Source of the DNA: Candidatus Zixiibacteriota bacterium
GTDB lineage: Bacteria > Zixibacteria > MSB-5A5 > GN15 > JAAZOE01
Reading direction: 5' to 3'
DNA: 64,000 nucleotides
Assembly: GCA_036480375.1 (NCBI GenBank)
Contig: JAZGGI010000003.1
Location: 1 to 64,000 of the forward strand
The notes beneath the pieces were generated by a model. The model ran no database searches and was not told the origin of the DNA. It saw only the letters and a program-made list of their open reading frames with translations. Both the position numbers and the translations under genes were made by a program. This document shows, piece by piece, positions 53,285 to 55,757 of this stretch. Each line of letters starts with the position of its first letter. Within the stretch, counting starts at the first letter, position 1.

Positions 53285-53430
53285 ATGCCCAACCATACAA
53301 TTCCTGATAAGAATATGCATATTAACACCTTGAGGGCGAACAGTTTTTTATGGAATTTTCAAAACATAAATTAAAAACGCAACCTTAAGGCGGCAATTTG
53401 CGTCTAAGTAAATGAGAAGGGTTTGACAGA

Positions 53431-53468
53431 AAAAGGCCGCGGTTCGATTCGATTCGAACTGCGGCTTT
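53431..53468 (-). terminator. Rho-independent terminator after the DUF3179 gene
   Basis: On the minus strand: AAAGCCGCAGTTCGA, loop, TCGAACCGCGGCCTTT, with one G-U pair in the stem, 6 bp past the stop codon at 53474. An intact terminator argues that the gene ahead is a maintained unit. Confidence 0.8.
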
Positions 53469-53473
53469 TAATT

Positions 53474-54493
53474 TTATGGCGTATATACGTCAGTTGACGG
53501 GAAAAACGATTTCCAGGCAAACCAAAAAGCAGTAATAACCGGATGGCTATCCAGTTTTTTCCCGGATACTTGAATTATCCTATCAAATTTCAATTCACCA
53601 AAATTTTCATCGCCGGTTTGTAATATCGTTGTATTCCGATCCGGGAATGAAACGGCTAAATCCTTGAGATGATCCGGAATTTTGTATCCCGCGACGGTAT
53701 TATCTTCTCCCCCTATAAGCATAATCTTCTGATCTCCGAGAGTGGCAATAATAACGCGTTTTTCATTAAGATACTCGCTTTTGACGGCCAGTCTTGCGGT
53801 GCTTGATTGCAGGCCGTAAATAATATCTTTGGACGCGAAAGTTGAGTCATCAAAAGTATTGCCGAAAATTCCGATTTTATTATTATCCACGAAGTACTTT
53901 TCATAAACAGATTTGTCGCCGCCTCTTTCCGGCTTTTTCAAAAATTCAATTCCGGGTATTTCAAGCGCGGATTTGAAAATTGTCATACCGGAGGGAAAAA
54001 GGGTTAGCTTTTTACCTTGCATCTCCCCTTTAATGCATTCCCCGGTTATCTGCGACCAGAGCGAACCGGTTTGATCGTCTTCCATGACAAGAGCGTCTCG
54101 CCATAATCGTCCGGAGGCTTCAAACGTTAGAGTTTTCCCATCGATCTCTGCGGCATAAACTATGCCGGTGTAGCAGAGCGGTCACCAGGTAGCGGTGATT
54201 GCCTTTCCGGCGATGCGATCGTTGACGATTTCATGATGGTCAAGATGCCAAATGGAATAGGCATGAGTTTCATCTCCCGAACTGACTATCATAACAGGTT
54301 CGTTATCAAAATAAAACTCCTTTGCCTGCTCCTGAGATATGTATTCGGGATTATAAATGCCGGGGATCATGCCTTTTTCCAATACAATATACATGGTGTG
54401 TCCATTGACCATTTCCGTTTTCACGTCCCGTTGAGCCATGGATATACCTCCAAGAATAAACAAGCACAATAACAGAAGGTTGATGTACTTCAT
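53474..54493 (-). CDS. DUF3179 family secreted protein, probable selenoprotein (in-frame UGA at residue 104)
   Basis: Two open frames (54493-54182 and 53474-54085) lie in the same phase and join with no other stop if the UGA at 54184-54182 is read. The result is 339 residues: signal peptide MKYINLLLLCLFILGGISMAQ, then P-G-I-Y-N-P-E-Y-I-S, HEIVNDRIAGKAITATW-U-PLCYTGIVY, TFEASGRLWRDALVM, SLWSQITGECIKGEM and a C-terminal domain. DUF3179 proteins normally read (T/Y)-(Y/W)-C-P-L-C at this point, so the UGA replaces the first Cys of a CxxC. A hairpin that fits a bacterial SECIS starts three bases after the UGA. The ribosome binding site is GCGAGG, and a terminator follows the stop. The alternative is a point nonsense mutation. 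The family's biochemical role is unknown. Confidence 0.8.
54146..54184 (-). promoter_or_regulatory. Putative bacterial SECIS element (UGA plus hairpin)
   Basis: After the UGA (54184-54182) come CCG, stem CUCUGC (54178-54173), a six-base bulge UACACC, upper stem GGCAUA (54166-54161), loop GUU (54160-54158), UAUGCC and GCAGAG. Both stems are perfectly paired. The apical loop begins 22 nt past the UGA and its first base is G, as expected for SelB recognition. The same bases encode PLCYTGIVYAAE, so the structure must coexist with coding. Confidence 0.72.
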
Positions 54494-54620: not shown

Positions 54621-55757
54621 ATGAAAGATAAACGCAATGAAATTCTCGCCAAAAGCCTAATCCATTATTCATGCAAGCTTAAAAAAGGCGAAAAGATAAT
54701 GATTGAAGTCAAGGGTAAGGAAACTCTTGAACTCGCAAAAGAATTGATTAAGGAAACGACTAAAATCGGCGCCATACCGTTTTGGTATTATAATGATGAA
54801 TCCCTCCAGAGAAACTGGATAATGGGCGCGTCCGAAAATCAATTTACAGCATTCGGAAAACTTCATCTTAAACTAATGAAGGAATTCGACGCCTATTTGG
54901 GCCTGCGCGGTTCGGACAATCCGTTTGATCTGGCTGACGTTCCGGGAAAACAAATGAACATGAATAAAATGCATTATTATAAGCCGGTGCATCTCGAGCA
55001 ACGGGTCAAAAGAACTCGTTGGTGCGTTCTGCGATATCCCAATAATGCCATGGCACAATTGGCCGAAACCAGTCAGGAGACTTTTGAAAAATTCTACTTT
55101 GATGTCTGTTGCCTGGATTACGCCAGGATGTCGAAAGCGATGACTCCCCTGGTGAATAAGCTTCGTAAAACGAATATGGTTCGCATTGTCGCACCCGGAA
55201 CCGATTTGAATTTTTCGATTAAAGGTATTGGGGTTGTTAAGTGCGATGGCGAGCGCAATATTCCGGACGGCGAGGTTTATACCGCTCCGGTCAAAGACAG
55301 CGTCAATGGTTATATTACCTATAACACACCGTCATTGACCGAGGGGATAACTTTTGAGAATATTAAATTTGAGTTCAGAAACGGAAAGATTGTCCATGCC
55401 GAATGCGACAATCATACCAAAAAGCTCAATGAGATTCTGGATACCGATAAAGGTGCTCGCTATATTGGTGAGTTTGCAATCGGCGTCAATCCGTTTATAC
55501 TGCATCCGATGAAAGACACCCTCTTCGACGAGAAAATTGCGGGTTCATTCCACTTCACTCCCGGACAATGTTACGATGAAGCTCCCAACGGCAACAAATC
55601 CGCCATTCATTGGGATTTAGTCCAGATTCACCGCAAGGAGTACGGCGGCGGAGAAATTTATCTTGACGGAAAGCTATTCCGCAAGAACGGGATATTTGTT
55701 GACAAAAAGCTCGAGAAATCATTTTCAGCTTCGGCACTCAGAAGCAAAGGTATTTAA
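54621..55757 (+). CDS. M29-type aminopeptidase
   Basis: 378 residues of the thermophilic aminopeptidase (M29, AmpS/AmpT) family. N-terminal Y-S-C-K-L-K-K-G-E-K-I-M-I-E-V, then the metal-site region: G-E-R-N-I-P-D-G-E-V-Y-T-A-P near residue 213 and G-E-F-A-I-G-V-N near residue 280 (Glu ligands), SFHFTPGQCYDE, and S-A-I-H-W-D-L-V near residue 330 (His and Asp). A dinuclear metal site and broad N-terminal exopeptidase activity are expected, in the cytoplasm. AGAGG lies seven bases before the ATG. Divergent from the DUF3179 gene across 127 bp. Confidence 0.88.
   Translation: MKDKRNEILAKSLIHYSCKLKKGEKIMIEVKGKETLELAKELIKETTKIGAIPFWYYNDESLQRNWIMGASENQFTAFGKLHLKLMKEFDAYLGLRGSDNPFDLADVPGKQMNMNKMHYYKPVHLEQRVKRTRWCVLRYPNNAMAQLAETSQETFEKFYFDVCCLDYARMSKAMTPLVNKLRKTNMVRIVAPGTDLNFSIKGIGVVKCDGERNIPDGEVYTAPVKDSVNGYITYNTPSLTEGITFENIKFEFRNGKIVHAECDNHTKKLNEILDTDKGARYIGEFAIGVNPFILHPMKDTLFDEKIAGSFHFTPGQCYDEAPNGNKSAIHWDLVQIHRKEYGGGEIYLDGKLFRKNGIFVDKKLEKSFSASALRSKGI

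Follow-up and report, generated by a model that had tools for sequence, protein, structure and literature searches.

DUF3179 proteins with a UxxC/T motif are listed as a prokaryotic selenoprotein family in two reviews (PMC9312934, PMC13188914). PMC9312934 credits these selenoproteins to the Olavius algarvensis symbiont study of Zhang & Gladyshev 2007, and PMC13188914 likewise cites earlier work. Matched by elimination, they are probably the 'OS_HP1' UxxC family of PMC2398784. Proteins named 'DUF3179 domain-containing (seleno)protein' already occur in NCBI annotation. Since DUF3179 selenoproteins are already on published lists and in NCBI naming, we rejected the proposal of the first-pass annotation that the locus described here encodes a 'new-type' selenoprotein. 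A paper naming both Zixibacteria and selenoproteins describes, in its available part, no selenoproteins of that phylum.

The locus lies in a stretch of 64,000 nucleotides, the whole of which is referred to as the window, from a Candidatus Zixiibacteriota genome of 3.59 Mb (50 contigs, 97% complete). The gene, hereafter Sec-DUF3179, and the features next to it are the following:

53474..54493, minus strand: Sec-DUF3179 gene, 339 codons with UGA as predicted selenocysteine (U104), TAA stop
54182..54184, minus strand: UGA codon, predicted selenocysteine 104, in the motif T-W-U-P-L-C-Y-T-G-I-V-Y; TGA invariant in the form-1 orthologues read
54431..54493, minus strand: probable N-terminal signal peptide MKYINLLLLCLFILGGISMAQ, by eye from the sequence, with a hydrophobic start
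53427..53465 (about), minus strand: hairpin and T-run resembling a Rho-independent terminator, 3' of the gene, by eye
54621..55757, plus strand: divergent neighbouring gene for an M29 aminopeptidase (Pfam)

The gene had been described as two same-phase frames separated by one UGA, and TGA 54184-54182 (codon 104) is indeed the single internal stop in the minus-strand frame 54493-53474, which standard translation splits into 103 + 203 codons. When the TGA is counted as a residue, PF11376 (DUF3179) matches residues 41-334 of 339 with E=3.2e-59 and 201.2 bits against a gathering cut-off of 27, covering positions 2-292 of the 292 in the profile, and thus on both sides of the UGA as claimed. The candidate ribosome-binding site and terminator noted earlier are likewise visible by eye, as a GAGG and as the hairpin with T-run. 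Judged by eye from its hydrophobic N-terminal stretch, the protein looks secreted and would be exported via a signal peptide; just after this stretch follows Q21, which is nearly invariant in relatives. Genes for an M29 peptidase, EamA, SDR and M20 adjoin Sec-DUF3179, and by sequence inspection the same neighbours are found at the orthologous locus L050 and in part at L051 and L052, the neighbourhood being kept in other families of the order. An EamA gene near DUF3179 is seen in Zixibacteria and also on a Thiothrix plasmid (see below). No family was matched by the protein in an NCBIfam search, an Rfam scan of the gene region returned chance matches only, and no relatives of the gene were found in viral contigs and phages. 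Elsewhere in the window, at about 39637 on the minus strand, two same-phase frames of 479 and 536 codons are split by a TGA without a SECIS-like hairpin; these are probably two tandem genes, with an ATG closely after the TGA.

Relatives were sought in 99 related genomes and then in 133 genomes of the phylum. We refer to the clade of the window gene, with the motif W-U-PLC, as form 1. Form-1 genes were found in 28 Zixibacteria genomes, every copy with one TGA in the same column; the carriers seen belong to this one phylum and are mostly draft MAGs, and every named near relative is a Candidatus Zixiibacteriota MAG. W-U-PLC is present in each form-1 sequence read, in almost all cases as TW-U-PLC, and none of the form-1 orthologues in the 28 genomes has a cysteine at the Sec column. 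More distant homologues do have it: ten Zixibacteria paralogues read YCPLTG there, and plasmid-borne genes of haloarchaea and Thiothrix read TWCPIC, TYCPLC or TYCPLT. The expectation of UGA or Cys at this column in relatives was thus confirmed. The earlier assignment of the UGA to the first cysteine of the family's CPLC motif holds in so far as a cysteine is aligned there, but the second cysteine is not family-wide (CPLC, CPIC, often CPLT). The absence of decay was corroborated as well, with the TGA as sole stop in 28 genomes and dN/dS values of 0.08-0.14 on the 3' side of the UGA in the cases that allowed an estimate, and similarly low values on its 5' side. One long-branch DUF3179 gene, L058 (G086:C270), joins form 1 in the tree and has a serine at the Sec column (TWSPF), which may be a Sec-to-Ser loss.

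A further set of TGA-containing genes, which we call form 2, consists of these members:

L053-L057 and L048: form-2 members in genomes G031, G026 (three), G029 and G073
G105:C63:11279-11581: further candidate form-2 member

According to Pfam, form-2 genes are fusions of a C-type lectin domain (Lectin_C) with DUF3179, of which they have the N-terminal half, and dockerin-like repeats are also present by eye. The motif is Y-U-P-[L/I]-[K/Q/A], i.e. YUPL(K/Q) or YUPIA, with no Cys at +3, and most of the members read have closely spaced cysteines (GCGC-like) about 50 residues past Sec. In a tree with long branches and no root, form 2 groups with the Cys paralogues against form 1. It lies outside the listed UxxC/T motif and may be new. 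We incline, if only narrowly, to the view that form 2 is a second, separate Sec-DUF3179 clade and a selenoprotein form that is new; it might be a selenoenzyme bound to the surface and associated with sugars or a scaffold.

As to the role of the predicted selenocysteine, W-H-L-D-x-H-E and T-W-U-P-L-C are invariant in the alignment of relatives and the protein looks secreted, for which reasons we favour U104 and C107 as a redox pair in the envelope with a possible metal site, albeit with chances that we judge to be about even. Sec104 and Cys107 of U-P-L-C would probably form a reversible selenenylsulfide and might, together with the invariant H83, D85, H87 and E88 cluster, serve as a thiol- or metal-redox site. 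Alternatively, Sec could be inserted but work by itself as a nucleophile, or bind a metal along with the invariant histidines, as the lone Cys of the CPLT homologues would need to do. Many Cys homologues are CPLT without a Cys at +3, in form 2 this position is K, Q or A and WHLD(x)HE is invariant, all of which is in line with such a role, but the +3 Cys is invariant in form 1, which suggests a working pair in that clade; we regard this alternative as possible without preferring it to the U104-C107 pair. An AlphaFold prediction from four sequences had a mean pLDDT of 35 and a PDB search by sequence found no related solved structure, so that any enzymatic role of the protein is a guess from the motif.

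The genome was searched for selA, selB, selC and selD, and all four score over their cut-offs: selA (C7:14981-16312, 493.7 bits) adjoins selB (C7:16339-18189, 318.9 bits), tRNA-Sec (selC) is located at C10:70897-70988 (74.3 bits against an Rfam cut-off of 47) and selD scores 383 bits. The selD gene (L019, G000:C26:126288-127211) has one in-frame TGA itself (SGAG-TGA-ASKIGP); Sec-containing SelD proteins with an in-frame TGA are a known type. Almost all genomes of the phylum have selB (117 of 133), which makes its co-occurrence with Sec-DUF3179 uninformative. In three of the 28 form-1 carriers (G001, G050, G076) no gene passes the selB threshold, probably a result of incomplete drafts.

Downstream of the UGA, the transcript can fold into a SECIS-type hairpin, CUCUGC-(6 nt)-GGCAUA-GUU-UAUGCC-GCAGAG, with two parts:

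54146..54178, minus strand: whole hairpin including the lower stem CUCUGC/GCAGAG, from the MFE fold; lower stem perfect in this species
54152..54166, minus strand: putative SECIS core GGCAUA-GUU-UAUGCC with the conserved loop G at 54160, from the bSECIS model, covariation and synonymous constraint

The first-pass annotation had placed a double-stem hairpin at 54178-54146 with a G-starting apical loop, beginning 22 nt past the UGA; the hairpin exists and its loop does start with G, but the distance from the UGA is 3 nt for its base and 21 nt for the apical loop. We applied the bacterial SECIS constraints of PMC13188914 by hand, i.e. a loop of 3-9 nt with a G within its first two positions, an upper stem of 4-16 bp, a distance of 16-37 nt from the UGA and an MFE of at most -7.5. 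The element has a 3-nt loop GUU (G then U first), a 6-bp stem, a spacing of 21 nt and an MFE of -15.6 kcal/mol in a 61-nt stretch. By folding energy alone the hairpin is unremarkable (z -1.6, with 14 of 200 shuffles equally good), and we judge it to be real because of the comparative evidence and not because of its energy.

The form-1 consensus of the hairpin is GGCAU-[A/C]GUNU-AUGCC. The lower stem was rejected as part of the conserved element, since it is paired in 65% of cells across 26 orthologues; the upper stem (54166-54152) alone is conserved. In the stretch from codon +6 to codon +10 past the UGA, the Tyr codon is TAT in 26/26 sequences compared to 50% elsewhere in form-1 genes, the codon for Ala/Val/Thr has C as its third base in 26/26, and Ile is never ATT. 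This codon usage indicates that codons +6 to +10 are constrained beyond the needs of the protein. The apical-loop alternatives AUA-GUU/C-UAU and AUC-GUG-UAU (54164-54156 and equivalents) are never mixed in the 26 sequences. In form 1 alone, one stem pair has double changes and covariation is not decisive; it became strong once form 2 was included together with two distant members of form 1. Form 2 and the distant L076 have the hairpin in the register of form 1, built from other bases (GCUGU/ACAGC, GCCGU/ACGGC, GGCGUG/CACGUC). Over the two Sec-DUF3179 clades, 99.4% of stem cells are paired and 20 cells have double changes, with none of 500 shuffles as good, a control that ignores the relatedness of the sequences. 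Slid-register controls gave at most 55% pairing, and in the Cys paralogues 25 of 50 cells pair in the same register (50%), never with all five pairs.

By the standards of sequence evidence, the way in which machinery, column, hairpin and selection fit together makes Sec insertion near certain, and the UGA at codon 104 is thus very strongly predicted to insert selenocysteine, as the first reading of the locus had it from its UGA, column and hairpin. SelB with Sec-tRNA-Sec would recognise the GU-loop hairpin just past the UGA, by which selenocysteine would be placed at residue 104. Decoding as another amino acid, through a reassigned code or near-cognate readthrough (e.g. Trp, Cys), is conceivable in so far as readthrough of a UGA does not require Sec and residue 104 is deduced from the sequence, but the other window genes examined are intact frames under table 11, the genome has the full Sec machinery, the SECIS-type hairpin occurs in both TGA clades and is absent from the Cys paralogues, and homologues hold Cys, not Trp, at the column, which makes this very improbable. 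A nonsense mutation or sequencing error, leaving a pseudogene or two truncated peptides of the 103 and 203 codons given by standard translation, is refuted in practice and has a negligible probability in view of the form-1 genes in 28 genomes, whose sole stop is this TGA in one and the same column, and of purifying selection downstream of it, an RNA hairpin with compensatory changes and a neighbourhood kept in other families of the order. No reading other than insertion of selenocysteine accounts for machinery, column, hairpin and selection at once.

These results place a listed but uncharacterised selenoprotein family in an uncultured phylum as a recurring, conserved gene, and the conservation of the UGA and the RNA covariation lend strong comparative support to a Sec insertion element in DUF3179 genes. 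Gene finders will split the gene in many Zixibacteria genomes. An invariant Sec clade beside Cys paralogues, some of them in the same genomes, also offers a natural Sec/Cys comparison for DUF3179.

Compared to known systems, the in-frame UGA of the window gene falls where Cys homologues have their conserved cysteine, and a C follows at +3 (UPLC), i.e. the UxxC form of the listed motif. Like the published DUF3179 (PF11376) selenoproteins, its product belongs to this Pfam family with the predicted Sec in UxxC, the difference being that the host phylum here is Zixibacteria; for the published examples MBW1804167.1 and MDJ0986319.1, the likeness rests on the family and the described motif. WP_338918211.1 from a Salinirubellus plasmid, named '(seleno)protein' by NCBI, is of the same family and its TWCPIC aligns with TWUPLC, but it is archaeal and has Cys instead of Sec. 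The DUF3179 Cys proteins, with CPLTG in Zixibacteria paralogues and haloarchaea or CPLCG on a Thiothrix plasmid, share the domain with Cys at the Sec column, but are without Sec and often have Thr for the second Cys. On the Thiothrix subterranea plasmid NZ_CP133216.1 (L097), the Cys DUF3179 gene (CPLC) lies between genes for a 'GDCCVxC domain-containing (seleno)protein' and an EamA transporter. Unlike the window gene, the Zixibacteria Cys paralogues tested are without a SECIS-like hairpin. On this comparative evidence, the window gene is a well-supported further member of the already listed DUF3179 selenoproteins.
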